Below, piece after piece: positions 5,935 to 62,200 of a stretch of 64,000 nucleotides of DNA. The stretch is from assembly GCA_026874595.1 (NCBI GenBank), contig CM049306.1, forward strand, positions 63,370,019 to 63,434,018, in the 5' to 3' direction. Each line of letters starts with the position of its first letter. Within the stretch, counting starts at the first letter, position 1. The stretch is from Sipunculus nudus. Its lineage: Eukaryota > Annelida > Sipuncula > Golfingiida > Sipunculidae. Under the pieces are notes generated by a model that was not told the DNA's origin, did no database searches, and saw nothing but the letters and a program-made list of their open reading frames with translations. The position numbers and the translations under genes are program-made.

Positions 5935-8900
5935 TTACAAACAGTAATGTAAGAATCGAGTCCGGAATTAGACTCGAGTCTACTGTTTATAAGGACTCGG
6001 ACTCACACTCAAACTATAGGGTCCTGTACTCGGATTCACACTCGAAATAAAGGGTCCTGTACTCGGACTCACACTTGAACTATAGGGTCCTGGACTCGGA
6101 CTCACACTTGGACTATAGGGTCCTGGACATGGACTCACACTCGAACTATAGGGTCCTGGACTCGGACTCACACTCGAACTATAGGGTCCTGGACACGGAC
6201 TCACACTTGAACTATAGGGTCCTGGACTCGGACTCATACTTGGACTATAGGGTCCTGGACATGGACTCACACTCGAACTATAGGGTCCAGGACTCGGACT
6301 CACACTCGAACTATAGGGTCCTGGACTCGGATTCACACTCGAACTATAGGGTCCTGTACTCGGACTCACACTTGTACTATAGGGTCTTGGACTCGGACTC
6401 ACACTTGAACTATAGGGTCCTGGACTCGGACTCACACTCGAAGTATAGGGTCCTGGACTCGGACTCACACTTGAACAATAGGGTCCTGGACTCGGACTCA
6501 CACTTGGACTAAGGGTCCAGGACCCTATAGTCCAAGTATGAGTCAGAGTCCAGGACTTTATAAATTTATAAAGTTACAAACAGTAATGTAAGAATCGAGT
6601 CCGGAATTAGACTTGAGTCTACTGTTTATAAGGACTCGGACTCACACTCAAACTATAGGGTCCTGGACTCGGATTCACACTCGAACTAAAGGGTCCTGTA
6701 CTCGTGTGAGTACGAGTCCAGTGTGAGTACGAGTCCTGGACTCGGACTCACACTCGAAGTATAGGGTCCTGGACTCGTACTCACACTTGAACTATAGGGT
6801 CCTGGACTCGGACTCACACTTGTACTATAGGGTCTTGGACTCGGACCCACACTTGAACTATAGGGTCCTGGACTCGGACTCACACTCGAACTATAGGGTC
6901 CTGTACTCGGACTCACACTTGTACTATAGGGTCTTGGACTCGGACTCACACTTGAACTATAGGGTCCTGGACTCGGACTCACACTTAAACTATAGGGTCC
7001 TGGACTCGGACTCACACTTGGACTAAGGGTCCAGGACCCTATAGTCCAAGTATGAGTCAGAGTCCAGGACTTTATAAATTTATAAAGTTACAAACAGTAA
7101 TGTAAGAATCGAGTCCGGAATTAGACTTGAGTCTACTGTTTATAAGGACTCGGACTCACACTCAAACTATAGGGTCCTGGACTCGGATTCACACTCGAAC
7201 TAAAGGGTCCTGTACTCGTGTGAGTACGAGTCCAGTGTAAGTACGAGTCCTGGACTCGGACTCACACTCGAAGTATAGGGTCCTGGACTCGTACTCACAC
7301 TTGAACTATAGGGTCCTGGACTCGGAATCACACTTGGACTAAGGGTCCTGGACTCAGACTCACACTCGAAGTATAGGGTCCTGGACACGTACTCACACTT
7401 GAACTATAGGATCCTGGACTCGGACTCATACTTGGACTATAGGGTCCTGGGCTCGTACTCACACTTGGACTATAGGGTCCTGGACTCGTACTCACACTTG
7501 GACTATAGGGTCCTGCACTCGTACTCACACTTGGACTATAGGATCCTGGACTCGGACTCACACTTGGACTATAGGGTCCTGGACTCGGACTCACACTCGA
7601 AGTATAGGGTCCTGGACTCGGACTCACACTTGTACTATAGGGTCCTGGACTCGTACTCACACTTGGACTAAAGGGTTCTGGACTCGGACTCACACTTGGA
7701 CTATAGGGTCCTGGACTAGGACTCACACTCGGACTATAGGGTCCTGGACTAGGACTCACACTTGAACTATAGGGTCCTTGACTCGTACTCACACTTGGAC
7801 TATAGGGCCCTGGACTCGTACTAACACTTGGACTATAGGTCCTGGGCTCGTACTCACACTCGAAGTATAGGGTCCTGGACTCGGACTCACACTTGAACAA
7901 TAGGGTCCTGGACTCGGACTCACACTTGGACTAAGGGTCCAGGACCCTATAGTCCAAGTATGAGTCAGAGTCCAGGACTTTATAAATTTATAAAGTTACA
8001 AACAGTAATGTAAGAATCGAGTCCGGAATTAGACTTGAGTCTACTGTTTATAAGGACTCGGACTCACACTCAAACTATAGGGTCCTGGACTCTGATTCAC
8101 ACTCGAACTAAAGGGTCCTGTACTCGTGTGAGTACGAGTCCAGTGTGAGTACGAGTCCTGGACTCGGACTCACACTCGAAGTATAGGGTCCTGGACTCGT
8201 ACTCACATTTGAACTATAGGGTCCTGGACTCGGACTCACACTTGTACTATAGGGTCTTGGACTCGGACCCACACTTGAACTATAGGGTCCTGGACTCGGA
8301 CTCACACTCGAACTATAGGGTCCTGTACTCGGACTCACACTTGTACTATAGGGTCTTGGACTCGGACTCACACTTGAACTATAGGGTCCTGGACTCGGAC
8401 TCACACTTAAACTATAGGGTCCTGGACTCGGACTCACACTTGGACTAAGGGTCCAGGACCCTATAGTCCAAGTATGAGTCAGAGTCCAGGACTTTATAAA
8501 TTTATAAAGTTACAAACAGTAATGTAAGAATCGAGTCCGGAATTAGACTTGAGTCTACTGTTTATTAGGACTCCGACTCACACTCAAACTATAGGGTCCT
8601 GGACTCGGATTCACACTCGAACTAAAGGGTCCTGTACTCGTGTGAGTACGAGTCCAGTGTAAGTACGAGTCCTGGACTCGGACTCACACTCGAAGTATAG
8701 GGTCCTGGACTCGTACTCACACTTGAACTATAGGGTCCTGGACTCGGAATCACACTTGGACTAAGGGTCCTGGACTCAGACTCACACTCGAAGTATAGGG
8801 TCCTGGGCTCGTACTCACACTTGGACTATAGGGTCCTGGACTCGTACTCACACTTGGACTATAGGGTCCTGCACTCGTACTCACACTTGGACTATAGGAT

Positions 8901-11900
8901 CCTGGACTCGGACTCACTCTTGGACTATAGGGTCCTGGACTCGGACTCACACTCGAAGTATAGGGTCCTGGACTCGGACTCACACTTGTACTATAGGGTC
9001 CTGGACTCGTACTCACACTTGGACTAAAGGGTTCTGGACTCGGACTCTCACTTGGACTATAAAGTCCTGGAATCGGAAACACACTTGGACTATAGGGTCC
9101 TGGACTCTGACTCATACTTATACTAAAGGGTCCTGGACTCGTACTCACACTTGGACTATAGGTCCTGGACTCTGACTCACACTTGGACTATAGGGTCCTG
9201 GACTAGGACTCACACTTGGACTATAGGGTCCTGGACTCGTACTCACACTTGAACTATAGGGTCCTGGACTCGGAATCACACTTGGACTAAGGGTCCTGGA
9301 CTCAGACTCACACTCGAAGTATAGGGTCCTGGACACGTACTCACACTTGAACTATAGGATCCTGGACTCGGACTCATACTTGGACTATAGGGTCCTGGGC
9401 TCGTACTCACACTTGGACTATAGGGTCCTGGACTCGTACTCACACTTGGACTATAGGGTCCTGCACTCGTACTCACACTTGGACTATAGGATCCTGGACT
9501 CGGACTCACACTTGGACTATAGGGTCCTGGACTCGGACTCACACTCGAAGTATAGGGTCCTGGACTCGGACTCACACTTGTACTATAGGGTCCTGGACTC
9601 GTACTCACACTTGGACTAAAGGGTTCTGGACTCGGACTCACACTTGGACTATAGGGTCCTGGACTAGGACTCACACTCGGACTATAGGGTCCTGGACTAG
9701 GACTCACACTTGAACTATAGGGTCCTTGACTCGTACTCACACTTGGACTATAGGGCCCTGGACTCGTACTAACACTTGGACTATAGGTCCTGGGCTCGTA
9801 CTCACACTCGAAGTATAGGGTCCTGGACTCGGACTCACACTTGAACAATAGGGTCCTGGACTCGGACTCACACTTGGACTAAGGGTCCAGGACCCTATAG
9901 TCCAAGTATGAGTCAGAGTCCAGGACTTTATAAATTTATAAAGTTACAAACAGTAATGTAAGAATCGAGTCCGGAATTAGACTTGAGTCTACTGTTTATA
10001 AGGACTCGGACTCACACTCAAACTATAGGGTCCTGGACTCTGATTCACACTCGAACTAAAGGGTCCTGTACTCGTGTGAGTACGAGTCCAGTGTGAGTAC
10101 GAGTCCTGGACTCGGACTCACACTCGAAGTATAGGGTCCTGGACTCGTACTCACACTTGAACTATAGGGTCCTGGACTCGGACTCACACTTGTACTATAG
10201 GGTCTTGGACTCGGACCCACACTTGAACTATAGGGTCCTGGACTCGGACTCACACTCGAACTATAGGGTCCTGTACTCGGACTCACACTTGTACTATAGG
10301 GTCTTGGACTCGGACTCACACTTGAACTATAGGGTCCTGGACTCGGACTCACACTTAAACTATAGGGTCCTGGACTCGGACTCACACTTGGACTAAGGGT
10401 CCAGGACCCTATAGTCCAAGTATGAGTCAGAGTCCAGGACTTTATAAATTTATAAAGTTACAAACAGTAATGTAAGAATCGAGTCCGGAATTAGACTTGA
10501 GTCTACTGTTTATAAGGACTCCGACTCACACTCAAACTATAGGGTCCTGGACTCGGATTCACACTCGAACTAAAGGGTCCTGTACTCGTGTGAGTACGAG
10601 TCCAGTGTAAGTACGAGTCCTGGACTCGGACTCACACTCGAAGTATAGGGTCCTGGACTCGTACTCACACTTGAACTATAGGGTCCTGGACTCGGAATCA
10701 CACTTGGACTAAGGGTCCTGGACTCAGACTCACACTCGAAGTATAGGGTCCTGGGCTCGTACTCACACTTGGACTATAGGGTCCTGGACTCGTACTCACA
10801 CTTGGACTATAGGGTCCTGCACTCGTACTCACACTTGGACTATAGGATCCTGGACTCGGACTCACTCTTGGACTATAGGGTCCTGGACTCGGACTCACAC
10901 TCGAAGTATAGGGTCCTGGACTCGGACTCACACTTGTACTATAGGGTCCTGGACTCGTACTCACACTTGGACTAAAGGGTTCTGGACTCAGACTCTCACT
11001 TGGACTATAAAGTCCTGGAATCGGAAACACACTTGGACTATAGGGTCCTGGACTCTGACTCATACTTATACTAAAGGGTCCTGGACTCGTACTCACACTT
11101 GGACTATAGGTCCTGGACTCTGACTCACACTTGGACTATAGGGTCCTGGACTAGGACTCACACTTGGACTATAGGGTCCTGGACTAGGACTCACACTTGA
11201 ACTATAGGGTCCTTGACTCGTACTCACACTTGGACTATAGGGCCCTGGACTCGTACTAACACTTGGACTATAGGTCCTGGGCTCGTACTCACACTTGGAC
11301 TATAGGGTCCTGTACTCGTACTCACACTTGGACTATAGGGTCCTGCACTCGTACTCACACTTGGACTATAGGATCCTGGTCTCGGACTCACACTTGGACT
11401 ATAGGCTCCTGGACTCGGACTCACACTCGAAGTATAGGGTCCTGGACTCGGACTCACACTTGTACTATAGGGTCCTGGACTCGTACTCACACTTGGACTA
11501 AAGGGTTCTGGACTCGGACTCTCACTTGGACTATAAAGTCCTGGACTCGTACTCACACTTGGACTATAGGTCCTGGACTCTGACTCACACTTGGACTATA
11601 GGGTCCTGGACTAGGACTCACACTTGGACTATAGGGTCCTGGACTAGGACTCACACTTGAACTATAGGGTCCTTGACTCGTACTCACACTTGGACTATAG
11701 GGCCCTGGACTCGTACTCACACTTGGACAACAGGGTCCTGGACTCGGACTCTCACTTGGACTATAAAGTCCTGGACTCTGACTCACACCTGGACTATAGG
11801 GTCCTGGACTAGGACTCACACTTGGACTATAGGGCCCTGGACTCGGACTCACACTTGAACTATAGGGTCCTGGACTCTGACTCACACTTGGACTATCGGG

Positions 11901-12050
11901 TCCTGGACTCGGACTCACACTTGTAATATAGGGTCCTGGACTTGTACTCACACTTGGACTATAGGGTCCTGGACTCGGACTCACACTTGTACCATAGGGT
12001 CCTGGACTCGTACTCACATTTGGACTAAAGGGTCCTGGACTCGGACTTGC
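5935..12050. repeat. 33-bp minisatellite with higher-order structure
   Basis: About 6.1 kb is made of a 33-bp unit built on actatagggtcctggactcg followed by a gactcacacttgg-type half. Because 33 is a multiple of three and the unit lacks stops in several frames, long ORFs appear on both strands (YRVLDSDSHLD-like on plus, SPSPGPYSSSV-like on minus). These are best treated as repeat artefacts. The array is broken by recurring spacers of about 140 bases near 5942, 6513, 7025, 7932, 8447, 9879 and 10394. Each later spacer carries a unit in reverse orientation plus tttataaatttataaagttacaaacag. Blocks are duplicated at offsets of 1,948 and 1,422 bases. Confidence 0.95.
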
Positions 12051-12199: not shown

Positions 12200-12583
12200 T
12201 GTTACGAAGACAAATAAATGAGGGGAAAATCCTGGACCGATCCCGTTTTCGAACCCAGGACGGTGCCGTACAAGTCTGGCGAACCAACCGCTTCACTAGC
12301 AAAGCAAGGCTCACTAGCGAGACAGTTCGGTCCGCTTTTATGTCACCCCGTAACACACCCCCTCTTAAGAGCGTTCTGCCATCAGAACAAGACTAATTAT
12401 CCCAGAAGTCACACTTTGGTGAGCTTATTCCCTGGGCCACAAGGTTAATCGTCACTTTAGACGAGCCCCCTTTCTGTTACGAAGGCAAATTGTTGTGGGG
12501 AAAAATCCTGGGCCGATCCGGGAGTCGAACCCAGGTCGGTGGCGCACAAGTCCGGCGAACCAACCGCTTCTATGTCACCCCGT

Positions 12584-12587
<4 letters not shown>
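12200..12587 (-). mobile_element. Miniature LTR-like element (TRIM candidate), copy 1
   Basis: Two direct terminal repeats, 12200..12355 (156 bp) and 12475..12587 (113 bp, with about 43 bp missing), both start TGTTACGAAG and end CGTAACA. They flank a 119-bp noncoding core. On the minus strand each terminal repeat contains a tRNA-like segment with an A-box-like gcggttggttcgcc and a B-box ggttcga, followed by a decayed or intact cccggatcgg. Right after the minus-strand 5' repeat comes AGGGGGCTCGTC, close to a tRNA-Pro primer binding site as I remember it. AAGAGGGGGTG lies just before the 3' repeat, like a polypurine tract. The element sits in a TA microsatellite, so its target duplication is unreadable. 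Alternatives are a dimeric SINE or a MITE. Confidence 0.65.
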
Positions 12588-23700: not shown

Positions 23701-24300
23701 CTGCTTATCCAAGCGGGGCTTTAATAAACACACAAGGTTTCAGGACACATATGAAATCACAGTTGATAGTATCAATATAGTATGACAGTCTCAAAATAAT
23801 GTGAAAAATGCATCAAATTTTTTTGTTTAATTTATGAACTGAAGTAGCCAATCATAATCAATAAACACACAGGGTTTCAGGACACTGGATGACACTACAG
23901 CTGAGAAACTGACATTACCTCTGTCATTCAATGGTCTCAAAAACAGAACAAAAAATCGTAAAAATTAGAAAATATACAGGGAGCGACACCAGTTTTCGGG
24001 AACTGACAAAACTAGTCATGGTTAATATTCAAGACAAGATTAATGGCAATCTATGCATTAGTTAAACAAGATACTGGAGGTTTCCTATCAAATTTTTAAT
24101 TATTCTGGGGGGTACTTACGAGCCCCATAGCAGGGGATATAGGTTGCAGTGACTTAATTTCTGGTTTCCAGGAAAAAATTTTTATCACCCTACATTGGAA
24201 TTTAGACACAAGTTTCAAGGGTTAGCGGTTACGATTTGAGCCCTGCTAACGGCCGGCCGGACGGATAACGGACAAAGCGACATTCATATACCTCTGTTGA
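23700..24300 (+). repeat. Dispersed repeat related to the TAGCTCAG-hairpin family
   Basis: Contains the family blocks ttaattattctggggggtac, gagccccatag, ggatataggttgcagtgac and acggccggccggacgg. Homologous units are at 51660-52830 and 57490-57680. The terminal hairpin is degraded here. Confidence 0.6.
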
Positions 24301-24314
24301 CTTCAGTGAAAATA

Positions 24315-24500
24315 GAAACAGGGCCGAATGTAGATTCGAACCCATAACACTCAAGTCAGACGTTCTACCGCAAACTGTGACATTAACGTCAGACGTTCTA
24401 CCGCAAACTGTGACATTAACGTCAGACGTTCTACCGCAAACTGTGACATTAACGTCAGACGTTCTACCGCTTCGCTATCAAAGCAAGCTTCACTAGCACG
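24315..24500 (-). mobile_element. tRNA-like SINE fragment with triplicated A-box region
   Basis: On the minus strand, gctagtgaagc, then agcggtagaacgtctgac (A-box-like), then gggttcgaatctac (B-box). A 33-bp unit containing cagacgttctaccgc is repeated three times plus a partial copy at 24354-24470, so four A-box-like cores precede one B-box. The ORF with repeated AVERLTLMSQF is a consequence of the 33-bp period. Confidence 0.55.
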
Positions 24501-24984
24501 AGCAGTAGGAACGCTGTTGTGTGCACGGTTACACATACAATGCTTATTATTCATTACATTCTGTTGAAACCGTATTTTCCGCAGTTAAAAACACCATAAA
24601 AGCAAAATGTACACTTGTTGAAGTTCAAATTTTCACATATATCCACTTATGATGCATCACTGTATTACAATTTATAAGTTGTACTGATTCACTTGATAAA
24701 CGTTACAGTTTCAAAATTTTTGTAAGTCAGCCTTCAGCGATCGGGACGGAACACTTTGCCTGAAATGCTGGTAAAGATGTTTATTCCGTTTATTCAGCTC
24801 AAAGAATGGGCCAATCTGAGGCATTTTTATTAAAATGTGCTTCTACGAGAGAAATGCATTGTTTTTAAATCCTGTGATAACTAGAAAAAAAAAGAATCAG
24901 GTAAAATCATTTAAATAATATGCTCAGCCATGCCTGATTTCAGCAGCCCTTAAATTTATAAAGTAAACACATTCCTTGATTATA

Positions 24985-34076: not shown

Positions 34077-37000
34077 GTTATATATCATCCACTTAAACCT
34101 TTAGGCTTTATTTTATATATCATGTACTTAAACCCTTAGGATTTATTTTATATATTATGCACTTAAACCTTTAGGATTTATTTTATATATCATGTACTTA
34201 AACCTTGAGGATTTATTTTATAAATCATGCACTTAAACCTTTAGGATTTATTTTATAAATCATGTACTTAAACCTTGAGGATTTATTTTATATATCATGT
34301 ACTTAAACCTTGAGGATTTATTTTATAAATCATGCACTTAAACCTTGAGGATTTATTTTATATATCATGTACTTAAACCTTGAGGATTTATTTTATATAT
34401 CATGCACTTAAACCTTGAGGATTTATTTTATATATCATGTACTTAAACCTTGAGGATTTATTTTATAAATCATGCACTTAAACCTTTAGGATTTATTTTA
34501 TAAATCATGCACTTAAACCTTGAGGATTTATTTTATATATCATGTACTTAAACCTTGAGGATTTATTTTATATATCATGTACTTAAACCTTGAGGATTTA
34601 TTTTATATATCATGTACTTAAACCTTGAGGATTTATTTTATATATCATGTACTTAAACCTTGAGGATTTATTTTATATATCATGTACTTGAACCTTGAGG
34701 ATTTATTTTATATATCATGTACTTAAACCTTGAGGATTTATTTTATATATCATGTACTTAAACCTTGAGGATTTATTTTATATATCATGTACTTAAACCT
34801 TGAGGATTTATATTATATATCATGTACTTAAACCTTGAGGATTTATTTTATATATCATGTACTTAAACCTTGAGGATTTATTTTATATATCATGTACTTA
34901 AACCTTGAGGATTTATTTTATATATCATGTACTTAAACCTTGAGGATTTATTTTATATATCATGTACTTAAACCTTGAGGATTTATTTTATATATCATGT
35001 ACTTAAACCTTGAGGATTTATTTTATATATCATGTACTTAAACCTTGAGGATTTATTTTATATATCATGTACTTAAACCTTGAGGATTTATTTTATAAAT
35101 CATGCACTTAAACCTTGAGGATTTATTTTATATATCATGTACTTAAACCTTGAGGATTTATTTTATATATCATGTACTTAAACCTTGAGGATTTATTTTA
35201 TATATCATGTACTTAAACCTTGAGGATTTATTTTATATATCATGCACTTAAACCTTGAGGATTTATTTTATATATCATGCACTTAAACCTTGAGGATTTA
35301 TTTTATATATCATGTACTTAAACCTTGAGGATTTATTTTATATATCATGTACTTAAACCTTGAGGATTTATTTTATATATCATGCACTTAAACCTTGAGG
35401 ATTTATTTTATATATCATGTACTTAAACCTTGAGGATTTATTTTATAAATCATGCACTTAAACCTTGAGGATTTATTTTATATATCATGCACTTAAACCT
35501 TGAGGATTTATTTTATATATCATGTACTTAAACCTTGAGGATTTATTTTATAAATCATGCACTTAAACCTTGAGGATTTATTTTATATATCATGTACTTA
35601 AACCTTGAGGATTTATTTTATATATCATGTACTTAAACCTTGAGGATTTATTTTATAAATCATGCACTTAAACCTTGAGGATTTATTTTATAAATCATGC
35701 ACTTAAACCTTGAGGATTTATTTTATATATCATGTACTTAAACCTTGAGGATTTATTTTATATATCATGTACTTAAACCTTGAGGATTTATTTTATATAT
35801 CATGTACTTAAACCTTGAGGATTTATTTTATATATCATGGACTTAAACCTTGAGGATTTATTTTATATATCATGGACTTAAACCTTGAGGATTTATTTTA
35901 TATATCATGGACTTAAACCTTGAGGATTTATTTTATATATCATGGACTTAAACCTTGAGGATTTATTTTATATATCATGTACTTAAACCTTGAGGATTTA
36001 TTTTATATATCATGGACTTAAACCTTGAGGATTTATTTTATATATCATGGACTTAAACCTTGAGGATTTATTTTATATATCATGTACTTAAACCTTGAGG
36101 ATTTATTTTATATATCATGTACTTAAACCTTGAGGATTTATTTTATATATCATGTACTTAAACCTTGAGGATTTATTTTATAAATCATGTACTTAAACCT
36201 TGAGGATTTATTTTATATATCATGTACTTAAACCTTGAGGATTTATTTTATATATCATGTACTTAAACCTTGAGGATTTATTTTATATATCATGCACTTA
36301 AACCTTGAGGATTTATTTTATAAATCATGCACTTAAACCTTGAGGATTTATTTTATATATCATGTACTTAAACCTTGAGGATTAATTTTATATATCATGT
36401 ACTTAAACCTTGAGGATTTATTTTATATATCATGTACTTAAACCTTGAGGATTTATTTTATATATCATGTACTTAAACCTTGAGGATTTATTTTATATAT
36501 CATGTACTTAAACCTTGAGGATTTATTTTATAAATCATGTACTTAAACCTTGAGGATTTATTTTATATATCATGTACTTAAACCTTGAGCATTTATTTTA
36601 TATATCATGTACTTAAACCTTGAGGATTTATTTTATAAATCATGTACTTAAACCTTGAGGATTTATTTTATATATCATGTACTTAAACCTTGAGGATTTA
36701 TTTTATATATCATGTACTTAAACCTTGAGGATTTATTTTATAAATCATGCACTTAAACCTTTAGGATTTATTTTATATATCATGTACTTAAACCTTGAGG
36801 ATTTATTTTATATATCATGTACTTAAACCTTGAGGATTTATTTTATAAATCATGCACTTAAACCTTGAGGATTTATTTTATATATCATGTACTTAAACCT
36901 TGAGGATTTATTTTATAAATCATGCACTTAAACCTTGAGGATTTATTTTATAAATCATGCACTTAAACCTTGAGGATTTATTTTATAAATCATGCACTTA

Positions 37001-40000
37001 AACCTTGAGGATTTATTTTATATATCATGTACTTAAACCTTGAGGATTTATTTTATAAATCATGCACTTAAACCTTGAGGATTTATTTTATAAATCATGC
37101 ACTTAAACCTTGAGGATTTATTTTATATATCATGTACTTAAACCTTGAGGATTTATTTTATATATCATGTACTTAAACCTTGAGGATTTATTTTATAAAT
37201 CATGCACTTAAACCTTGAGGATTTATTTTATAAATCATGCACTTAAACCTTGAGGATTTATTTTATATATCATGTACTTAAACCTTGAGGATTTATTTTA
37301 TAAATCATGTACTTAAACCTTGAGGATTTATTTTATATATCATGTACTTAAACCTTGAGGATTTATTTTATATATCATGCACTTAAACCTTGAGGATTTA
37401 TTTTATATATCATGCACTTAAACCTTGAGGATTTATTTTATATATCATGTACTTAAACCTTGAGGATTTATTTTATATATCATGTACTTAAACCTTGAGG
37501 ATTTATTTGATAAATCATGTACTTAAACCTTGAGGATTTATTTGATAAATCATGCACTTACACCTTGAGGATTTATTTTATATATCATGTACTTAAACCT
37601 TGAGGATTTATTTTATATATCATGTACTTAAACCTTGAGGATTTATTTTATATATCATGTACTTAAACCTTGAGGATTTATTTTATATATCATGTACTTA
37701 AACCTTGAGGATTTATTTTATATATCATGTACTTAAACCTTGAGGATTTATTTTATATATCATGTACTTAAACCTTGAGGATTTATTTTATATATCATGT
37801 ACTTAAACCTTGAGGATTTATTTTATATATCATGTACTTAAACCTTGAGGATTTATTTTATATATCATGTACTTAAACCTTGAGGATTTATTTTATATAT
37901 CATGTACTTAAACCTTGAGGATTTATTTTATATATCATGTACTTAAACCTTGAGGATTTATTTTATATATCATGTACTTAAACCTTGAGGATTTATTTTA
38001 TATATCATGTACTTAAACCTTGAGGATTTATTTTATATATCATGTACTTAAACCTTGAGGATTTATTTTATATATCATGTACTTAAACCTTGAGGATTTA
38101 TTTTATATATCATGTACTTAAACCTTGAGGATTTATTTTATAAATCATGCACTTAAACCTTGAGGATTTATTTTATATATCATGTACTTAAACCTTGAGG
38201 ATTTATTTTATAAATCATGCACTTAAACCTTGAGGATTTATTTTATATATCATGTACTTAAACCTTGAGGATTTATTTTATAAATCATGCACTTAAACCT
38301 TGAGGATTTATTTTATATATCATGTACTTAAACCTTGAGGATTTATTTTATAAATCATGCACTTAAACCTTTAGGATTTATTTTATATATCATGTACTTA
38401 AACCTTGAGGATTTATTTTATATATCATGCACTTAAACCTTGAGGATTTATTTTATATATCATGTACTTAAACCTTGAGGATTTATTTTATATATCATGC
38501 ACTTAAACCTTGAGGATTTATTTTATATATCATGTACTTAAACCTTGAGGATTTATTTTATATATCATGTACTTAAACCTTGAGGATTTATTTTATATAT
38601 CATGCACTTAAACCTTGAGGATTTATTTTATATATCATGCACTTAAACCTTGAGGATTTATTTTATATATCATGCACTTAAACCTTGAGGATTTATATTA
38701 TATATCATGTACTTAAACCTTGAGGATTTATTTTATATATCATGTACTTAAACCTTGAGGATTTATTTTATATATCATGTACTTAAACCTTGAGGATTTA
38801 TTTTATATATCATGTACTTAAACCTTGAGGATTTATTTTATAAATCATGCACTTAAACCTTTAGGATTTATTTTATATATCATGTACTTAAACCTTGAGG
38901 ATTTATTTTATATATCATGTACTTAAACCTTGAGGATTTATTTTATATATCATGTACTTAAACCTTGAGGATTTATTTTATATATCATGTACTTAAACCT
39001 TGAGGATTTATTTTATATATCATGCACTTAAACCTTGAGGATTTATTTTATAAATCATGCACTTAAACCTTTAGGATTTATTTTATATATCATGTACTTA
39101 AACCTTGAGGATTTATTTTATATATCATGCACTTAAACCTTGAGGATTTATTTTATAAATCATGCACTTAAACCTTTAGGATTTATTTTATATATCATGT
39201 ACTTAAACCTTGAGGATTTATTTTATATATCATGTACTTAAACCTTGAGGATTTATTTTATATATCATGTACTTAAACCTTGAGGATTTATTTTATATAT
39301 CATGCACTTAAACCTTGAGGATTTATTTTATATATCATGCACTTAAACCTTGAGGATTTATTTTATAAATCATGCACTTAAACCTTTAGGATTTATTTTA
39401 TAAATCATGTACTTAAACCTTGAGGATTTATTTTATATATCATGTACTTAAACCTTGAGGATTTATTTTATATATCATGTACTTAAACCTTTAGGATTTA
39501 TTTTATATATCATGTACTTAAACCTTGAGGATTTATTTTATATATCATGTACTTAAACCTTGAGGATTTATTTTATATATCATGTACTTAAACCTTGAGG
39601 ATTTATTTTATATATCATGCACTTAAACCTTGAGGATTTATTTTATATATCATGTACTTAAACCTTTAGGATTTATTTTATATATCATGTACTTAAACCT
39701 TGAGGATTTATTTTATATATCATGCACTTAAACCTTGAGGATTTATTTTATAAATCATGCACTTAAACCTTTAGGATTTATTTTATAAATCATGTACTTA
39801 AACCTTGAGGATTTATTTTATATATCATGTACTTAAACCTTGAGGATTTATTTTATATATCATGCACTTAAACCTTGAGGATTTATTTTATAAATCATGC
39901 ACTTAAACCTTTAGGATTTATTTTATATATCATGTACTTAAACCTTGAGGATTTATTTTATATATCATGTACTTAAACCTTGAGGATTTATTTTATATAT

Positions 40001-43000
40001 CATGTACTTAAACCTTGAGGATTTATTTTATATATCATGCACTTAAACCTTGAGGATTTATTTTATATATCATGCACTTAAACCTTGAGGATTTATTTTA
40101 TATATCATGTACTTAAACCTTGAGGATTTATTTTATATATCATGTACTTAAACCTTGAGGATTTATTTTATATATCATGTACTTAAACCTTGAGGATTTA
40201 TTTTATATATCATGTACTTAAACCTTGAGGATTTATTTTATATATCATGTACTTAAACCTTGAGGATTTATTTTATAAATCATGCACTTAAACCTTGAGG
40301 ATTTATTTTATATATCATGCACTTAAACCTTGAGGATTTATTTTATATATCATGTACTTAAACCTTGAGGATTTATTTTATATATCATGTACTTAAACCT
40401 TGAGGATTTATTTTATATATCATGTACTTAAACCTTGAGGATTTATTTTATATATCATGTACTTAAACCTTGAGGATTTATTTTATATATCATGTACTTA
40501 AACCTTGAGGATTTATTTTATATATCATGTACCTAAACCTTGAGGATTTATTTTATATATCATGTACTTAAACCTTGAGGATTTATTTTATATATCATGT
40601 ACTTAAACCTTGAGGATTTATTTTATATATCATGTACTTAAACCTTGAGGATTTATTTTATATATCATGTACTTAAACCTTGAGGATTTATTTTATATAT
40701 CATGTACTTAAACCTTGAGGATTTATTTTATATATCATGTACTTAAACCTTGAGGATTTATTTTATATATCATGTACTTAAACCTTGAGGATTTATTTTA
40801 TAAATCATGCACTTAAACCTTGAGGATTTATTTTATATATCATGTACTTAAACCTTGAGGATTTATTTTATAAATCATGCACTTAAACCTTTAGGATTTA
40901 TTTTATATATCATGCACTTAAACCTTGAGGATTTATTTTATATATCATGTACTTAAACCTTGAGGATTTATTTTATATATCATGCACTTAAACCTTGAGG
41001 ATTTATTTTATATATCATGTACTTAAACCTTGAGGATTTATTTTATATATCATGCACTTAAATCTTGAGGATTTATTTTATATATCATGTACTTAAACCT
41101 TGAGGATTTATTTTATATATCATGTACTTAAACCTTGAGGATTTATTTTATATATCATGTACTTAAACCTTGAGGATTTATTTTATATATCATGTACTTA
41201 AACCTTGAGGATTTATTTTATAAATCATGCACTTAAACCTTGAGGATTTATTTTATATATCATGTACTTAAACCTTGAGGATTTATTTTATATATCATGT
41301 ACTTAAACCTTGAGGATTTATTTTATATATCATGTACTTAAACCTTGAGGATTTATTTTATATATCATGTACTTAAACCTTGAGGATTTATATTATAAAT
41401 CATGTACTTAAACCTTGAGGATTTATTTTATATATCATGTACTTAAACCTTGAGGATTTATTTTATAAATCATGTACTTAAACCTTGAGGATTTATTTTA
41501 TATATCATGTACTTAAACCTTGAGGATTTATTTTATATATCATGTACTTAAACCTTGAGGATTTATTTTATATATCATGTACTTAAACCTTGAGGATTTA
41601 TTTTATATATCATGTACTTAAACCTTGAGGATTTATTTTATATATCATGTACTTAAACCTTGAGGATTTATTTTATATATCATGTACTTAAACCTTGAGG
41701 ATTTATTTTATATATCATGTACTTAAACCTTGAGGATTTATTTTATATATCATGTACTTAAACCTTGAGGATTTATTTTATATATCATGTACTTAAACCT
41801 TGAGGATTTATTTTATATATCATGTACTTAAACCTTGAGGATTTATTTTATATATCATGTACTTAAACCTTGAGGATTTATTTTATATATCATGTACTTA
41901 AACCTTGAGGATTTATTTTATATATCATGTACTTAAACCTTGAGGATTTATTTTATATATCATGTACTTAAACCTTGAGGATTTATTTTATATATCATGT
42001 ACTTAAACCTTGAGGATTTATTTTATATATCATGTACTTAAACCTTGAGGATTTATTTTATAAATCATGTACTTAAACCTTGAGGATTTATTTTATATAT
42101 CATGTACTTAAACCTTGAGGATTTATTTTATATATCATGTACTTAAACCTTGAGGATTTATTTTATATATCATGTACTTAAACCTTGAGGATTTATTTTA
42201 TATATCATGTACTTAAACCTTGAGGATTTATTTTATATATCATGTACTTAAACCTTGAGGATTTATTTTATATATCATGTACTTAAACCTTGAGGATTTA
42301 TTTTATATATCATGTACTTAAACCTTGAGGATTTATTTTATATATCATGCACTTAAACCTTGAGGATTTATTTTATATATCATGTACTTAAACCTTGAGG
42401 ATTTATTTTATAAATCATGCACTTAAACCTTGAGGATTTATTTTATATATCATGCACTTAAACCTTGAGGATTTATTTTATATATGATGCACTTAAACCT
42501 TGAGGATTTATTTTATATATCATGTACTTAAACCTTGAGGATTTATTTTATATATCATGTACTTAAACCTTGAGGATTTATTTTATAAATCATGTACTTA
42601 AACCTTGAGGATTTATTTTATATATCATGTACTTAAACCTTGAGGATTTATTTTATATATCATGTACTTAAACCTTGAGGATTTATTTTATAAATCATGT
42701 ACTTAAACCTTGAGGATTTATTTTATATATCATGTACTTAAACCTTGAGGATTTATTTTATAAATCATGCACTTAAACCTTGAGGATTTATTTTATATAT
42801 CATGGACTTAAACCTTGAGGATTTATTTTATATATCATGGACTTAAACCTTGAGGATTTATTTTATATATCATGGACTTAAACCTTGAGGATTTATTTTA
42901 TATATCATGTACTTAAACCTTGAGGATTTATTTTATAAATCATGCACTTAAACCTTGAGGATTTATTTTATATATCATGCACTTAAACCTTGAGGATTTA

Positions 43001-46000
43001 TTTTATATATCATGCACTTAAACCTTGAGGATTTATTTTATATATCATGCACTTAAACCTTGAGGATTTATTTTATATATCATGTACTTAAACCTTGAGG
43101 ATTTATTTTATATATCATGCACTTAAACCTTTAGGATTTATTTTATATATCATGTACTTAAACCTTGAGGATTTATTTTATATATCATGTACTTAAACCT
43201 TGAGGATTTATTTTATAAATCATGCACTTAAACCTTTAGGATTTATTTTATATATCATGTACTTAAACCTTGAGGATTTATTTTATATATCATGTACTTA
43301 AACCTTGAGGATTTATTTTATATATCATGTACTTAAACCTTGAGGATTTATTTTATATATCATGTACTTAAACCTTGAGGATTTATTTTATATATCATGT
43401 ACTTAAACCTTGAGGATTTATTTTATATATCATGCACTTAAACCTTGAGGATTTATTTTATATATCATGTACTTAAACCTTGAGGATTTATTTTATATAT
43501 CATGCACTTAAACCTTGAGGATTTATTTTATAAATCATGCACTTAAACCTTGAGGATTTATTTTATATATCATGCACTTAAACCTTGAGGATTTATTTTA
43601 TATATCATGTACTTAAACCTTGAGGATTTATTTTATATATCATGTACTTAAACCTTGAGGATTTATTTTATATATCATGTACTTAAACCTTGAGGATTTA
43701 TTTTATATATCATGTACTTGAACCTTGAGGATTTATTTTATATATCATGTACTTAAACCTTGAGGATTTATTTTATATATCATGTACTTAAACCTTGAGG
43801 ATTTATTTTATATATCATGTACTTAAACCTTGAGGATTTATTTTATAAATCATGTACTTAAACCTTGAGGATTTATTTTATATATCATGGACTTAAACCT
43901 TGAGGATTTATTTTATATATCATGTACTTAAACCTTGAGGATTTATTTTATAAATCATGTACTTAAACCTTGAGGATTTATTTTATATATCATGTACTTA
44001 AACCTTTAGGATTTATTTTATATATCATGCACTTAAACCTTGAGGATTTATTTTATATATCATGTACTTAAACCTTGAGGATTTATTTTATATATCATGT
44101 ACTTAAACCTTGAGGATTTATTTTATATATCATGTACTTAAACCTTGAGGATTTATTTTATATATCATGCACTTAAACCTTGAGGATTTATTTTATATAT
44201 CATGCACTTAAACCTTGAGGATTTATTTTATATATCATGCACTTAAACCTTGAGGATTTATTTTATATATCATGCACTTAAACCTTGAGGATTTATTTTA
44301 TATATCATGGACTTAAACCTTGAGGATTTATTTTATATATCATGGACTTAAACCTTGAGGATTTATTTTATATATCATGGACTTAAACCTTGAGGATTTA
44401 TTTTATATATCATGTACTTAAACCTTGAGGATTTATTTTATATATCATGTACTTAAACCTTGAGGATTTATTTTATATATCATGCACTTAAACCTTGAGG
44501 ATTTATTTTATATATCATGCACTTAAACCTTGAGGATTTATATTATATATCATGTACTTAAACCTTGAGGATTTATTTTATATATCATGTACTTAAACCT
44601 TGAGGATTTATTTTATATATCATGCACTTAAACCTTGAGGATTTATTTTATATATCATGTACTTAAACCTTGAGGATTTATTTTATATATCATGTACTTA
44701 AACCTTGAGGATTTATTTTATATATCATGTACTTAAACCTTGAGGATTTATTTTATATATCATGTACTTAAACCTTGAGGATTTATTTTATATATCATGT
44801 ACTTAAACCTTGAGGATTTATTTTATATATCATGTACTTAAACCTTGAGGATTTATTTTATATATCATGCACTTAAACCTTGAGGATTTATTTTATAAAT
44901 CATGCACTTAAACCTTGAGGATTTATTTTATATATCATGTACTTAAACCTTGAGGATTTATTTTATATATCATGTACTTAAACCTTGAGGATTTATTTTA
45001 TATATCATGTACTTAAACCTTGAGGATTTATTTTATATATCATGCACTTAAACCTTGAGGATTTATTTTATATATCATGCACTTAAACCTTGAGGATTTA
45101 TTTTATATATCATGTACTTAAACCTTGAGGATTTATTTTATATATCATGTACTTAAACCTTGAGGATTTATTTTATATATCATGCACTTAAACCTTGAGG
45201 ATTTATTTTATATATCATGTACTTAAACCTTGAGGATTTATTTTATATATCATGTACTTAAACCTTGAGGATTTATTTTATATATCATGTACTTAAACCT
45301 TGAGGATTTATTTTATATATCATGTACTTAAACCTTGAGGATTTATTTTATATATCATGTACTTAAACCTTGAGGATTTATTTTATATATCATGTACTTA
45401 AACCTTGAGGATTTATTTTATATATCATGTACTTAAACCTTGAGGATTTATTTTATATATCATGTACTTAAACCTTGAGGATTTATTTTATATATCATGT
45501 ACTTAAACCTTGAGGATTTATTTTATATATCATGTACTTAAACCTTGAGGATTTATTTTATATATCATGTACTTAAACCTTGAGGATTTATTTTATAAAT
45601 CATGCACTTAAACCTTGAGGATTTATTTTATAAATCATGCACTTAAACCTTGAGGATTTATTTTATATATCATGCACTTAAACCTTGAGGATTTATTTTA
45701 TAAATCATGTACTTAAACCTTGAGGATTTATTTTATATATCATGTACTTAAACCTTGAGGATTTATTTTATATATCATGTACTTAAACCTTGAGGATTTA
45801 TTTTATATATCATGTACTTAAACCTTGAGGATTTATTTTATAAATCATGCACTTAAACCTTGAGGATTTATTTTATATATCATGTACTTAAACCTTGAGG
45901 ATTTATTTTATAAATCATGCACTTAAACCTTGAGGATTTATTTTATATATCATGTACTTAAACCTTGAGGATTTATTTTATATATCATGTACTTAAACCT

Positions 46001-49000: not shown

Positions 49001-50030
49001 ACTTAAACCTTGAGGATTTATTTTATAAATCATGCACTTAAACCTTGAGGATTTATTTTATATATCATGTACTTAAACCTTGAGGATTTATTTTATATAT
49101 CATGTACTTAAACCTTGAGGATTTATTTTATATATCATGTACTTAAACCTTGAGGATTTATTTTATAAATCATGTACTTAAACCTTGAGGATTTATTTTA
49201 TATATCATGTACTTAAACCTTGAGGATTTATTTTATATATCATGCACTTAAACCTTGAGGATTTATTTTATATATCATGCACTTAAACCTTGAGGATTTA
49301 TTTTATATATCATGCACTTAAACCTTTAGGATTTATTTTATAAATCATGTACTTAAACCTTGAGGATTTATTTTATATATCATGTACTTAAACCTTGAGG
49401 ATTTATTTTATATATCATGTACTTAAACCTTGAGGATTTATTTTATATATCATGTACTTAAACCTTGAGGATTTATTTTATATATCATGTACTTAAACCT
49501 TGAGGATTTATTTTATATATCATGTACTTAAACCTTGAGGATTTATTTTATATATCATGTACTTAAACCTTGAGGATTTATTTTATATATCATGTACTTA
49601 AACCTTGAGGATTTATTTTATATATCATGTACTTAAACCTTGAGGATTTATTTTATATATCATGCACTTAAACCTTGAGGATTTATTTTATATATCATGT
49701 ACTTAAACCTTGAGGATTTATTTTATATATCATGTACTTAAACCTTGAGGATTTATTTTATATATCATGTACTTAAACCTTGAGGATTTATTTTATAAAT
49801 CATGCACTTAAACCTTGAGGATTTATTTTATATATCATGTACTTAAACCTTGAGGATTTATTTTATATATCATGTACTTAAACCTTGAGGATTTATTTTA
49901 TATATCATGTACTTAAACCTTGAGGATTTATTTTATATATCATGTACTTAAACCTTGAGGATTTATTTTATATATCATGTACTTAAACTTTGAGGATTTA
50001 TTTTATATATCATGCACTTAAACCTTGAGG
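34077..50030. repeat. 35-bp AT-rich satellite, about 456 units
   Basis: Head-to-tail units contain catgtacttaaaccttgagg followed by an attt/tatttta AT tract, about 23 percent GC. The first unit core (34086) and the last (50011) differ by 15,925 bases, exactly 455 x 35, so the array has no net length change over 16 kb. Variation is confined to a few sites: T/C/G after catg, tatatat versus tataaat, and tgagg versus ttagg or tcagg. The first three units are more diverged. The right end is abrupt at gagg|tttgcctagg. No stop-free frame exists. By the gene model it lies inside an FGD intron. Confidence 0.97.
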
Positions 50031-56409: not shown

Positions 56410-57480
56410 GTCTCGACGTTCAGCTGCATTTGTCCATAAGGATTTATTTATTTATGAGGTTTTCCAAAATATTGGTCCTGTGATCAGTTTGAAGCCAACC
56501 TGTTTACCCAAACTGTAGTTATCATCAATTATCTAATTTGTGAATGAATGGGCCCTGTGACCTTAACCTTTGACCGTATGACCCCCAAATCAAAAGGAAA
56601 CTTCCCCTATTGGCAGGTGCACCACATGTTCATAATGGAAGGATTGAGATGAAAAGTTTGGCTTAAAATGCATTCACAATCTTTCTACTGTAGTGGGTCA
56701 TGTGACCCCAGAATCAACAGTTCTAACTTAAGTGGTGGGCTATATATAAGTCAAGTTTGAAACCAATATTTCAAACTAAACTGGTGTTATCATCTGGAAA
56801 CTAATATGTGGATTGATGGCCCTCATGACCTTGACCTTGTGACCCCAAAATCCGTCAGTTACTTCCACAATTGGCAGGTGAGCAACATCTGGAAGATGTT
56901 TGGGACAACGTTTGGCTAAAATACATCAACAATCTTTTTAAAGAAGTGGGTCCTGTCACCTAGACCTTTGGTCTTATGACCCAAAAATCAAAAGGGTTCT
57001 TACATTATTGTTGGGTCATATATAAGTCAAAATTAAAACCAATATGTCAATCCAAACTGGAGTTATCATCCAGAAACAAATATGTGGACAGATGGGCCTC
57101 TATGACGATGACCTTTGACCTTGTGCCCCCCAAATCAATCAGTTTCTTCCCCTATTGATAGCACGGCTATATGTGCAAGATGGAAGGTTTTGGATGAATA
57201 GTTGGCTCAAAATGCATCCACAATCTTTCTAAATAAGTGGGTACTGTGACCTTGACCCTTGACCTCATGACCCCAAAATTGAACAGAATCTTCCCCTATT
57301 GGCAGGTAAGCAATATCTTGAAGATGGAAGGTTTGGGATGAAAAGTTTGGCTTCAAATGGATATGCTTTCTTTTTAAAGAAATGAGTTCTGTGACCATGA
57401 CCTTTGACCGTTGGACCCCAAAATCCACACGGTTCTTACTTTAGTGGTGAGTCATATATAAGTTTGAAACCAATATGTCA
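56410..57480 (+). repeat. TGACCTTTGACC-family tandem repeat block
   Basis: Units of about 140 bp with the same blocks as 53200-54245 (for example ccctattggcaggt, aaaatgcatccacaatcttt, atataagtcaagtttgaaac). Confidence 0.8.
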
Positions 57481-57849: not shown

Positions 57850-58961
57850 GGTTTAAAACCCCTTAATTAAAAAAAATATACACGCTAAAGAGAGCAGCCA
57901 TAGCCAGTAAACTGCCATCTTGACTTCTTTGTGGTTTAATAAATACCTCCGTGAATACTGACATCCTGCCGAATTACAACTCCGATCACAGTGCAAACAG
58001 TTAAGGCATAAACCAAAAGGGTCCTTGATTGTGGAAATTGAACACATCATTTTTTAAAAGAAAAGGATTACATAAAACTTATGAATAAAACAATTAAAGA
58101 TTCATGTGATGAAAATCCAGGAAGCAACCCCTTATTGCTGTGGGAAACCATAAAAATGCACATAAGAAGGGAAAGCATTAAATTTGGAACTGAGAAAGTA
58201 TGAAAAAAGAAAAATGAAATACAAAAAGAAATATTAGAACAAAAATTTGAAAAAAAAATAAAAGAATTAAATGGTTGTGATAACAGAATAACAAAAAAAC
58301 GATAAACTAGAAAAGATGATACAGGAGAAAACAGAGGGAGCCATAATCAAATGCAAAGCAAGATGGAATGAACAAGGCGAGAAGTCCACTAAATATTTTT
58401 TATTTTTTTTTTTTTAATTTTGAAAAAAAAACTACAAATCAAAAAAGATAATCAAACTCAGGCTCCAGATGGGTCATTGTCAGACAAACAAAGGGATATA
58501 ATGAAAGCTTTTATAAGAACCTGTATGAAACGAACCCTTCGATAGGAAATTAACACGATATCACGAAATTCCTAGCACAGGTACAGCCCGTGCAAAAATT
58601 TTCAGAACAATAAATCATGTTAATAAACTCTTCCATCAGTGAAAAAGAAATAACAGATGATTTGATGTCTCAAAAAATAACAAAACACCTGGGAATGATG
58701 GAATACCTGCCGAATTCTTAATTCAGTAAGTTATATCTATTCTGGTGGTGAACTCTCAATATCCCAAAAACAAGGTGTGATAAGTTTGATCCCTGAAAAA
58801 GGTAAGGATGATACAGAAATAAAAAGGCGAGGTATCTCTTTGAATTTTGACTACAAAATTATCGCTGGGGTTATAGCTTTAAGAATGAAAAAGATTTTGC
58901 CGGACATAATACACAACAACCGAACGGGATTTCTTAAAAACAAGCATATTGGAGAAAATAT
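57850..58961 (+). mobile_element. L1-like LINE relic, EN end to RT
   Basis: Broken plus-strand frames show DILPNYNSDHSA (the SDH motif closing the endonuclease), PGNDGIPAEF, then a 60-codon intact stretch ISLIPEKGKDDTEIKRRGIS, then LNFDYKIIAGVIALRMKKIL and PDIIHNNRTGFLKNKHIGEN. It is interrupted right after GEN by the miniature LTR-like element. Confidence 0.88.
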
Positions 58962-59363
58962 TGTTACGAAGATAAATTGTACAGGGGAAAACATTGGGCC
59001 GATCCCGGATTCGAACCCATGTCGGTGGCGCACAAGTCCGGCGTACCAACCGCTTCGCTTCGGTCTGCTTTTATGTCACTCCGTAACACACACCCTCTTA
59101 AGAGCGTTCTGCTATCAGAACAAGACTAATTATCCCGGGAGTCACACTTTGGTTGGCTTATTCCCTGGGCCACAAAATTTACCGTCACGTTTGACGAGCC
59201 CCTTTTTTGTTACGAAGACAAATTGTTCAGGGGAAAACACTGGGCCGATCCGGGATTCAAACCCATGTTAGTGGCGCACAAGTCCGACGTACCAACCGCT
59301 TCGCTAGCAAACCTAGCTTCACTAGCGAGACATTTCGGTCCGCTTTTATGTCACCCCGTAACA
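58962..59363 (-). mobile_element. Miniature LTR-like element (TRIM candidate), copy 2
   Basis: Terminal direct repeats 58962..59088 (127 bp) and 59208..59363 (156 bp) start TGTTACGAAG and end CGTAACA. The core of 119 bp is the same length as in copy 1. It is inserted in a LINE reading frame. Flanking ATAT on both sides fits a 4-bp target duplication, and removing the insert plus one ATAT reconnects the LINE frame as GEN-ITRF. The second terminal repeat is full length, the first lacks part of the tRNA-like 5' region. On the minus strand B-boxes read gggttcgaatccggga-like and gggtttgaatcccgg. Confidence 0.72.
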
Positions 59364-62200
59364 ATATAACACGGTTTTAAATAATATCTATCATGCAAAG
59401 AGAAGAATAAATGGACTACTTAAGATAATAGATTTAAAAAAATCTTACAACATATTGGAATGGAATTTTCTGGAGCAAAGTTTGAAATGTTTTAACATAA
59501 GCTCTATTATTAAAAAAATGGTGCAATAATCTGTATAATCACATTAGCAGTTGTATTATCAACAATGGGTGGGTATCCGATTACTTTAGTATTTCAATAG
59601 GAGTTAGACAGGGTTGATCTCTTTCCCAGTACCTGTTTTTTTAAAGTGTTTAGCATTAAATATAAGGAACAATAATCAAATAGAAAGTTATATGTCACGA
59701 GGAAAACTTGCACAATATGCAGATGACACTATTCTTACCTTGAAAATGTGTCATTAGTTTAAGAAGCACTAAAAGTTTTTATGAATTTCTCTAAAATTTC
59801 ACGCCTTGTGATAGATTTAAACAAAGACAACAGTGATGCCATTGCTCATGACTGATAATAGCGTATGGAACTGAAAAATTGAATCTGAAATAGTCATATG
59901 GCCCAGTTGATGTACTAGGAGTAAAGGTAACCTCAGAGGCAAATAATTTGAAAAATCTGAATTTTCTCCTTGCCATGGAGAAACTAAACAGGGTGCTTAA
60001 TGTTTGGTCATATCGAAATATTACATTACTTGAAAAAATTACAAAAATTTACAGCTTACCTACTTATTTTCAATATTACCTACACCTGATCATCATTTTA
60101 TTATAAAAAAAGGTTGAACAGATATGGTTTAGATTCATATGGTCCAACAAGCCAGACAGAATTAAAACAGAGTCTTTAATTTCATCTTATGAAAACAGGG
60201 CTAGGCCTTAATATGGTTCATCTTAGAACATTTGTAACAACTTTGAAAGTCTCTTGGGTCAAAAGCCGAATACTTAAAAATGACACAGAAAAATATAAAC
60301 AAGACATACTTAATATGATCAGGGGAGGTGAATATCTTTTTAATGTTATTTGGCCATAGATGATGTATGGTATAGTTTTAAAAACACAAACACGTTCTGG
60401 AAAGAGGTTCTACAAGCATTGTATGCATACAATTATAAAGACCAAGTAAAAGGAGTAACAAAAATTGGCAATCAGATAATTTGGTTGAACTCGAATGTTC
60501 GGTTAGATAAAAAAAAACATTATTTTATAAACACTTGATAGATGCAGGAATTTATTGCTTAACAGGCTTATTAACTGGAGAAGATGGCATTAAGAGATTT
60601 CCTAGTTATGAAGAATTTAGTCTCAGGGTTAAAAAAAAAAAATATTCTTGAATACAGAGGAAAATGTAAGGCTATTCCCTAAGAGTGGAAAGAAATGTTA
60701 TGGCATACAAATGAAGATGAATGTTTAATAAGTAAATTTTCCACATTTTTTAATGTGAAAATGTGACAAAAGTCGTGTACAACGAACTAGTCAAACCTCT
60801 TTATCCGTAAAACCCGAAGAATACTAAGAAAATAGACAAGGGACCTAAATATGGAATACGATTGTAAAAAATAAATTTTTAACTCTTTTATGCATATGGT
60901 GAGGTTAACACAATCTACAACCCTAAGGATATTTCATTTTAATTTGAAACACAGAATATAAACCACAAGTATACATTTTCATTTAAAATCGGTTTCAAAG
61001 ATAAAGAGACGTTTTTACTGTGAAACGGATCATTGACATTGTTTTGGGAATGTCCTATAACCAAAGGATATTGGATTAACAAGAAAATGTGAGACAAAAC
61101 AATAATATTTCACTAAAGGCTTGTGATATTGGGTGTCAAAGAAGAAGTGAAACCAAGAGCAAAGGATGGACTGAATTATGCTAAGAATATTTATGAGATT
61201 GTGAAACACATTGCTTAAAAAAATGAAGAACTGGAGGTACTTCCTGAAAAATGGGGTGTCTCTAAATTCTAATTTATAGTTTGGATTAGGTGTCAGTGTG
61301 TACTTATGTGTGTATGTATATTATATATATATATGTGTGTGTGTGTGTATGTGTGGGCATGCATGTTAGTGTGAATACATATATGTGTGCATCCCTTGTA
61401 CTTTTTGGATATATATGCAAATTACACGGGAACTACTGGGTGCCTCTTTGAATGAATACATTTCTTATCATATAGTTCATCCTGGTGGTAAGAAAATCAT
61501 TTATATTTAATCTGTTATGATATAAATGAATTGACTTTAACCTTTAACTTGCATATCTTTTTGTAAGTTTGAGACTTGTATAATTCTTTTTAGACAGAGA
61601 TAATAACTTAATTAAAATTAGAGAATGAGGCTGAACATATACGAGGTATTACTAGGTCTTCAGCTTTATTGTTGTTTTTTTTTTCATTTATTTATTTTTA
61701 TTTTATTTATCTATTTTTCCCCTTCATGTGCTTACTATGATGCTATTTTTTTTTTGTCATTGTTGCATTTTGTCAGACATTTTGTGCCTCTTAGAATGAA
61801 TACATTTTTTTATCATTTAGTTGATCCTGGTTGTAAGGGAGACACATAAGTTTAATCTGTTATGATATAAATGAATTAATTATTACCTTTATCTTACATA
61901 TCGTTTTGTAAGTTTGAGACTTGTGTGATTCTTTATAGACAGAGATAATAACTGAATTAAAATAGGTAAATAAGGTAAAACAAACGTGAGGTAAAACTAG
62001 TTATTCGTTTTTTCTTTATTATTTGGGGTTTTTTTTCCTTCCATGTGCTTACTTTGATGTTTTTTGTTTTTTTTTTTATTGTAGTATTTTGTCAGAAATA
62101 TATCTGGCTGTTCTTGTCCAAGATACGTGTATTGATTTTGTTATGTTTTGTGCTACATGTATTGTATACGTACTGTCTGAGTAAATGTTTGATAATAAAA
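59364..62200 (+). mobile_element. L1-like LINE relic, RT to 3' end
   Basis: Continues the 58.9-kb relic: INGLLKIIDLKKSYNILEWN (RT block with the first Asp), FSISIGVRQG, AQYADDTILTL (catalytic YADD, 59710 region), then EKLNRVLNVWSYRNITLLEK, FIWSNKPDRIKTES, and NQIIWLNSNVRLDKKKHYF. Many stops and shifts. The 3' region has a (GT)n patch at 61319-61350 and two tandem copies of a roughly 350-bp segment (61440-61790 and 61790-62105), then ataataaaacgag near 62190. Confidence 0.88.

Follow-up and report, generated by a model that had tools for sequence, protein, structure and literature searches.

Helenus-type miniature LTR retrotransposons with tRNA-like promoter motifs in the genome of Sipunculus nudus

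Introduction

Helenus elements are TRIMs with tRNA-like LTRs that occur in fungi, animals and plants (Kojima, 2024, Biology 13:119; PMC10886601). The passages of that paper relevant here give 4-bp duplications for animal families, a published length of 311–1263 bp, tRNA-Lys, His, Ile, Pro, Glu or Ser as primers in bivalves, and pteriomorph bivalves as the source of the molluscan families (PMC10886601). In the same passages, Gypsy partners are inferred, Pol III use is deduced from the conservation of the A and B boxes, and the tRNA isotype calls disagree in many families (PMC10886601).

We analysed a stretch of 64,000 nucleotides of the Sipunculus nudus genome (hereafter the window), which holds two elements of this kind, copies 1 and 2 of what we call family A, and a piece of a second family, B. 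Compared with the cited passages of Kojima (2024), these elements resemble Helenus in being TRIMs with tRNA-like LTR sequence, conserved A and B boxes, a primer site and a purine tract, in their 4-bp duplications and solo LTRs, in the use of tRNA-Pro, which is among the bivalve primers, and in a length within the published range; neither constitutes a convincing tRNA gene. They differ in the tRNA-Leu primer of family B, which is outside the paper's bivalve list, and in a run of four T (T4) after the B box, a feature that goes unmentioned in the main-text passages found, where terminators are discussed for Cassandra only. Cassandra, in the relevant passages of Kojima's account (PMC10886601), likewise has a small-RNA Pol III promoter and terminator in miniature LTRs, but the duplications reported at its RNA ends measure 18 bp, against 85–95 nt predicted here. 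It is a plant element, and its promoter is that of 5S rRNA instead of a tRNA. The mollusc element biv-TRIM, with repeats of 202–218 bp and an internal part of 77–80 bp, is also a TRIM with solo repeats and tandem copies, but differs in these lengths, and the passages of its description considered here report no clear primer site and mention no tRNA-like repeat (Satovic et al., 2019; PMC6934838). Ajax, a nemertean TRIM with partial 5S rRNA, shares a Pol III-type promoter piece in the LTR and differs in being 5S-derived and in having 5-bp duplications. With high confidence we assign both loci of the window, as old copies, to a Helenus-type TRIM (family A), an assignment made by the published description, and we propose a Pol III life cycle for it below.

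Results

Both loci were read and parsed as LTR–internal–LTR units on the minus strand, in agreement with the single architecture that a sequence-only reading of the window had proposed, and in both, terminal repeats of the form TGTTACG...CGTAACA enclose the 119-bp non-coding core described there. Copy 1 (388 bp) comprises a 5′ LTR of 113 bp (12475..12587), an internal non-coding part of 119 bp (12356..12474) and a 3′ LTR of 156 bp (12200..12355). Copy 2 (402 bp) comprises a 5′ LTR of 156 bp (59208..59363), an internal non-coding part of 119 bp (59089..59207) and a 3′ LTR of 127 bp (58962..59088). In the two copies, both of them shorter than 1000 bp overall, the LTRs range from 113 to 156 bp; the shorter LTRs have each lost sequence immediately before the A box, 43 bp in the 5′ LTR of copy 1 and 29 bp in the 3′ LTR of copy 2. 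Between the copies, the full-length LTRs were 83% identical (E ~1e-43) and the internal parts 89% identical (E ~2e-40), both far beyond chance. Within the copies, LTR pair identity was 86% (95/111) in copy 1 and 92% (117/127) in copy 2; with differences of 14% and 8% and one deletion each, both insertions are judged to be old. A single open reading frame of at least 120 amino acids overlapped either copy, a LINE frame entering copy 2. At the sequence level, the reading of the window copies as miniature gene-less LTR retrotransposons with tRNA-like promoter motifs in the LTRs is well supported.

Copy 2 is bordered by an exact target-site duplication, ATAT, on the left (58958..58961) and right (59364..59367). 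The flanks of copy 1, TTAT and ATAT, match at 3 of 4 positions, and this copy adjoins an AT microsatellite. Copy 2 interrupts a LINE reverse-transcriptase fragment on the plus strand (58699..58961, resuming after 59367), and its left flank matched LINE-1 ORF2p with E 0.003 and Pfam RVT_1 with E 0.037, below the cut-off. Counting the window itself, the genome gave 23 matches to this flank. Of the remaining LINE copies the six best were retrieved, and all six (6/6) were uninterrupted at the insertion point of copy 2; the window flanks minus one ATAT aligned to them except for one base missing beside the duplication and ordinary decay. The 4-bp duplications, the empty site and the LTR architecture together show integration in the manner of an LTR retrotransposon.

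Several other repeats were observed in the window. About 180 copies of a 33-bp unit (GGACTCGGACTCACACTTG...) form a 6-kb array at 5993-12047, which ends ~150 bp before copy 1, and ~456 copies of a 35-bp unit (97% matches) form a satellite array of 16 kb at 34078-50030. Repeats of 145 bp with TGACCTTTGACC motifs, a type of motif common in molluscs, lie at 54752-55743 and 57099-57425. By eye, 51884-52438 and ~24000-24250 belong to a dispersed repeat with a common stretch like TATCAAATTTT.AATTATTC.GGGGGGTACTT.

A single LTR was used to search the host genome (1,426.5 Mb); of 2777 first-look candidates 40 were scored, and these yielded at least 42 matches. Thirty family-A loci were retrieved, one of which (L001) is window copy 2 itself. 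Full copies and solo repeats were both present, as a check put forward with the sequence-only reading had envisaged: 23 loci had at least two LTRs and an internal part, 5 were solo LTRs and 2 were partial. Three of those 23 were tandem arrays of the form LTR–internal–LTR–internal–LTR, and the two-LTR loci mostly measured 402–433 bp. We interpret family A as an LTR retrotransposon that is ~431 bp long and non-coding, with LTRs made up largely of tRNA-derived sequence. Target duplications of 4–6 bp had also been anticipated, and an exact 4-bp duplication was found at 18/30 loci, compared with a mean of 2.7 and a maximum of 8 for permuted right flanks (20,000 trials); an exact 4-bp duplication was absent at the other 12/30. 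Duplications containing G or C, at 10/30 loci, likewise exceeded permutation (mean 0.4, max 4). The duplications also bordered two solo LTRs (L015 and L023) and a tandem array (L013). Nearly every family-A locus had ends of the TG...CA type, and AAAA lay directly 3′ of the element at 1/30. When viral and prokaryote contigs were scanned for exact patterns, 0 matches were obtained.

Some loci were rearranged. The single LTR pair of family A that scored as identical, at locus L018, was rejected as a fragment artefact; the order at this locus is LTR and primer site, then ~48 bp from the end of an LTR for a second time, then internal part and LTR, and a CCGGGAT-like stretch common to the primer site and the tRNA-like T arm of the LTR could be a template-switch point. 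At L019 and L048, inverted Helenus LTR pieces adjoin a full element, possibly as nested or inverted insertions.

The sequence-only reading had placed minus-strand tRNA-like A and B boxes in each repeat; the B box was found in all four window LTRs (4/4), and the A box varies. All positions that follow refer to the minus strand. In copy 1 the B boxes are GGTTCGACTCC (5′ LTR, 12521..12531) and the decayed GGTTCGAAAAC (3′ LTR, 12245..12255), and in copy 2 they are GGTTTGAATCC (5′ LTR, 59253..59263) and GGTTCGAATCC (3′ LTR, 59007..59017); against GGTTCGANTCC, which we take to be the B-box consensus, two are exact, a third has one change and the fourth two. The A-box sequence is TAGTGAAGCGG in the 3′ LTR of copy 1 (12288..12298), TAGCGAAGCGG in the 5′ LTR of copy 2 (59296..59306) and, with one change and beside the deletion, AAGCGAAGCGG in the 3′ LTR of copy 2 (59050..59060), while that of the 5′ LTR of copy 1 is cut by the 43-bp deletion. 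Each B box is followed by a T-run, a Pol III-type terminator motif, at 12501..12505 in the 5′ LTR of copy 1 and, as T4, at 12226..12229 in its 3′ LTR and at 59234..59237 and 58988..58991 in the 5′ and 3′ LTRs of copy 2.

These motifs recur across the family. The loci were chosen by LTR similarity, which favours intact boxes, and share common ancestry, so the following counts describe the family and not independent events: of 55 complete LTRs of family A, 53 had an A box (TAGCGAAGCGG) with at most two changes, and in 39 it was exact; the B box was present with at most two changes in 53 and as exact GGTTCGAATCC in 25; T4 or longer was present in the 30 nt that follow the B box in 47/55 (shuffled tails, mean 7.1, max 15) and between the A and B boxes in 2/52; and the T run was exactly four T in 43/55. 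Four T is a weak Pol III terminator in animals. Measured from the A-box start through the last T of the run, the median length was 73 nt.

ARAGORN called no tRNA, either in the window or in the 47 of 55 family loci submitted to it, the other 8 being second matches on the same elements or the window family-B piece. Rfam gave no match in the window at gathering scores, and at E ≤5 its listing, which shows the best of each clan only and could thus conceal a weaker match to tRNA, contained no tRNA row for copy 1, copy 2 or the piece at 24 kb. The weak tRNA-like matches were on copy 1, to the tmRNA T arm (E 0.39) and to mascRNA (E 4.9), with none on copy 2. Because ARAGORN found none and the Rfam matches were weak, kinship with tRNA is argued from the A and B boxes, the spacing between them and the family as published. 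A match of 12272-12334 to a trypanosomatid snoRNA model (E 0.0022, 26.3 bits, gathering score 50), which spans the leader hairpin and A box of copy 1, was taken as chance.

A tRNA-Pro primer-binding site after the minus-strand 5′ repeat, suggested earlier from the window, was confirmed in both copies and beyond them. It reads AGGGGGCTCGTC in copy 1 (12460..12471, minus strand) and AAGGGGCTCGTC, with two changes, in copy 2 (59193..59204, minus strand); among the 23 loci with an internal part, the 12-base core TGGGGGCTCGTC was exact in 17/23 and present with at most one change in 19/23. Most family-A loci have AAATGGGGGCTCGTC at this position. We take the primer of family A to be tRNA-Pro, and at locus L007, 18/18 bases equalled the complement of a tRNA-Pro 3′ end. 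Locus L018 also had 18/18 but was left out, being rearranged and its last bases possibly LTR-derived. The window sites are decayed versions of the family-A site. The purine tract reported before the 3′ repeat was likewise recovered, as AAGAGGGGGTG in copy 1 (12356..12366, minus strand), as AAGAGGGTGTG in copy 2 (59089..59099, minus strand) and, by script, adjoining the 3′ LTR in 19/23 family-A loci, where 2 of the 4 misses (L001 and L018) were parsing failures from misplaced LTR borders.

A 45-bp match at 24454-24497 led to a second tRNA-like piece in the window, a degenerate and apparently solo Helenus-type LTR of family B (24298..24533, minus strand) swollen by 3.5 identical 33-bp tandem units inside its tRNA-like body at 24355-24470. 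The idea that this piece at 24.3–24.5 kb was a promoter-donating SINE was dropped, its genome copies being mostly LTR pairs ~270 bp apart. The family-B sample contained 25 loci, of which 7 were second matches on the same element, leaving 18 distinct loci with the window piece included. Two LTRs and an internal part were found in 15/18; the LTRs are ~145 bp long with TGTAACC...CGTTACA ends. Their pairs were 92–100% identical (median 99.3%, with 5/15 pairs identical), which indicates that the observed copies are young, and family B is a second family, younger than family A. Its primer site TGGTGGCAGCGGTGGGAT, which we take to be the complement of a tRNA-Leu 3′ end, was exact in 11/15 and present with at most two changes in 13/15. 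By eye, a purine tract GAGGGGGTGAA precedes TGTAAC in 14/15 distinct elements; a script had given 0/15, its pattern permitting too short a gap. Exact 4-bp duplications were found at 10/18 loci (TATA 7, TATG 3), and of 17 relocated insertions 9 lie against runs of (AT)4 or more; at such places a TATA match by itself counts for little. With at most two changes each, the A box was present in 31/31 family-B LTRs and the B box in 30/31, and T4 in 27/31 (shuffled mean 8.3, max 14).

The LTRs of the two families aligned over ~120 bp with a score of 70 (shuffle max 25), and the non-tRNA leader alone scored 31 against a shuffle maximum of 23. This alignment, leader included, points to one lineage with two primers. 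A hairpin, GTTCTG-N4-CAGAAC, was seen before the purine tract in both families, but as a common feature it is only a suggestion, since the alignment of the internal parts scored 24 against a shuffle maximum of 25, with 26/2000 shuffles as good in a second run, and is not convincingly above shuffles.

Gypsy-type elements are plentiful in the host genome, as judged by at least 150 scored Integrase_H2C2 matches. No autonomous partner was recovered from them: primer sites and the internal hairpin were absent at the 30 of 150 scored integrase loci that were scanned. At the integrase locus L065, a purine tract GGAGGGGGAG is followed by TGTTACAGG, a junction resembling that of family A. Of four longer integrase stretches, only L086 had an LTR pair, with a different LTR start (TGTAATG). 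L086 (G000:C10:29886000-29892500) is of Gypsy type, and its LTR pieces are identical over 282 bases and cut by the end of the stretch, with the primer site outside the retrieved piece.

Discussion

The two window copies have the attributes by which TRIMs are recognised: they are shorter than 1000 bp and non-coding, with two direct LTRs, a primer site after the 5′ LTR and a polypurine tract before the 3′ LTR. Family A also shares with Helenus the A and B boxes that lie in its LTRs and the 4-bp duplication. The structural part of the sequence-only reading therefore stood, and its proposal of a distinct new class did not, because animal TRIMs with a tRNA-like LTR had already been published as Helenus in 2024 (PMC10886601).

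The main rival named with that reading was a dimeric SINE. Such an element, dimeric or composite, would be derived from a tRNA and moved by a LINE, and it would also be small and non-coding with tRNA A and B boxes. SINEs are expected to have an A-rich or LINE-derived tail and duplications of 10–20 bp; family A has a CGTAACA-type end that hardly varies, AAAA downstream at a single locus in 30, and duplications of 4 bp. When the outcomes that would speak for a SINE were sought, neither 10–20 bp duplications nor an A-rich tail pattern appeared, and solo repeats and tandem arrays did; moreover, the primer site and purine tract are at the positions they have in LTR retrotransposons. The 4-bp duplications, solo LTRs and fixed 3′ ends refute a dimeric SINE, and we regard it as extremely improbable. 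Even less credible is that ordinary tRNA genes or pseudogenes lie beside chance repeats: the sequence is tRNA-like, but no tRNA gene was called, and LTR–internal–LTR units with duplications are repeated genome-wide.

It is harder to dismiss, although we think it improbable, that the elements are ordinary TRIMs transcribed by Pol II, in which the tRNA-like part is the transcriptionally idle passenger of an ancient SINE insertion. The sequence ATAAAAG near the start of the family-A LTR, a possible TATA box, could serve such transcription, but family B has ACAAAAG at this position. Two diverged families, their loci chosen by LTR similarity, nevertheless keep the order of the A and B boxes, a similar spacing and T4 after them, and family B, a third of whose LTR pairs are identical, retains both boxes almost without exception. 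A point in favour of this rival is that, in the passages considered here, Pol III use by the published Helenus elements is given without experimental proof (PMC10886601).

For the preferred reading, a Helenus-type TRIM transcribed by Pol III, we propose the following life cycle. Directed by the two internal boxes, Pol III would start directly upstream of the A box of the 5′ LTR; a share of the transcripts would pass the T4 of the 5′ LTR, cross the internal part and end at the T4 of the 3′ LTR. The resulting RNA would carry a terminal repeat (R) of ~85–95 nt, a cellular tRNA-Pro would prime first-strand DNA at the primer site, the terminal repeat would permit strand transfer, and the purine tract would prime the second strand. 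Reverse transcriptase and integrase would be borrowed in trans from an autonomous Gypsy-type element, and insertion would generate the 4-bp duplication. Solo LTRs may have arisen by recombination between LTRs, and tandem arrays by unequal recombination.

The median span of 73 nt and a Pol III start 10–20 nt upstream predict an RNA of ~85–95 nt per LTR. Since the terminator motif is also present in the 5′ LTR, genomic RNA would need read-through, and T4 at that position should stop many transcripts early, which is a point against the scheme. As a tentative and rather doubtful extension, leaky Pol III termination at the minimal T4 of both LTRs might divide the output between this short RNA, which all LTRs, the solo ones too, would produce, and a rare read-through genomic RNA as the sole template for transposition, a layout that would have been kept by two lineages exchanging primer tRNA (Pro or Leu) and target preference (TATA/TATG in family B).

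The Helenus class, described from consensus sequences, is here independently confirmed in one genome by empty sites, solo LTRs, arrays and statistics, and a second lineage with another primer tRNA is added. Placement of the terminator, the primer switch and the target preference may be new details. The arrangement raises the mechanistic question of how a Pol III transcript passes beyond the 5′ LTR terminator to become a full genomic RNA, and each solo LTR could be a source of small RNA that annotation may misread.
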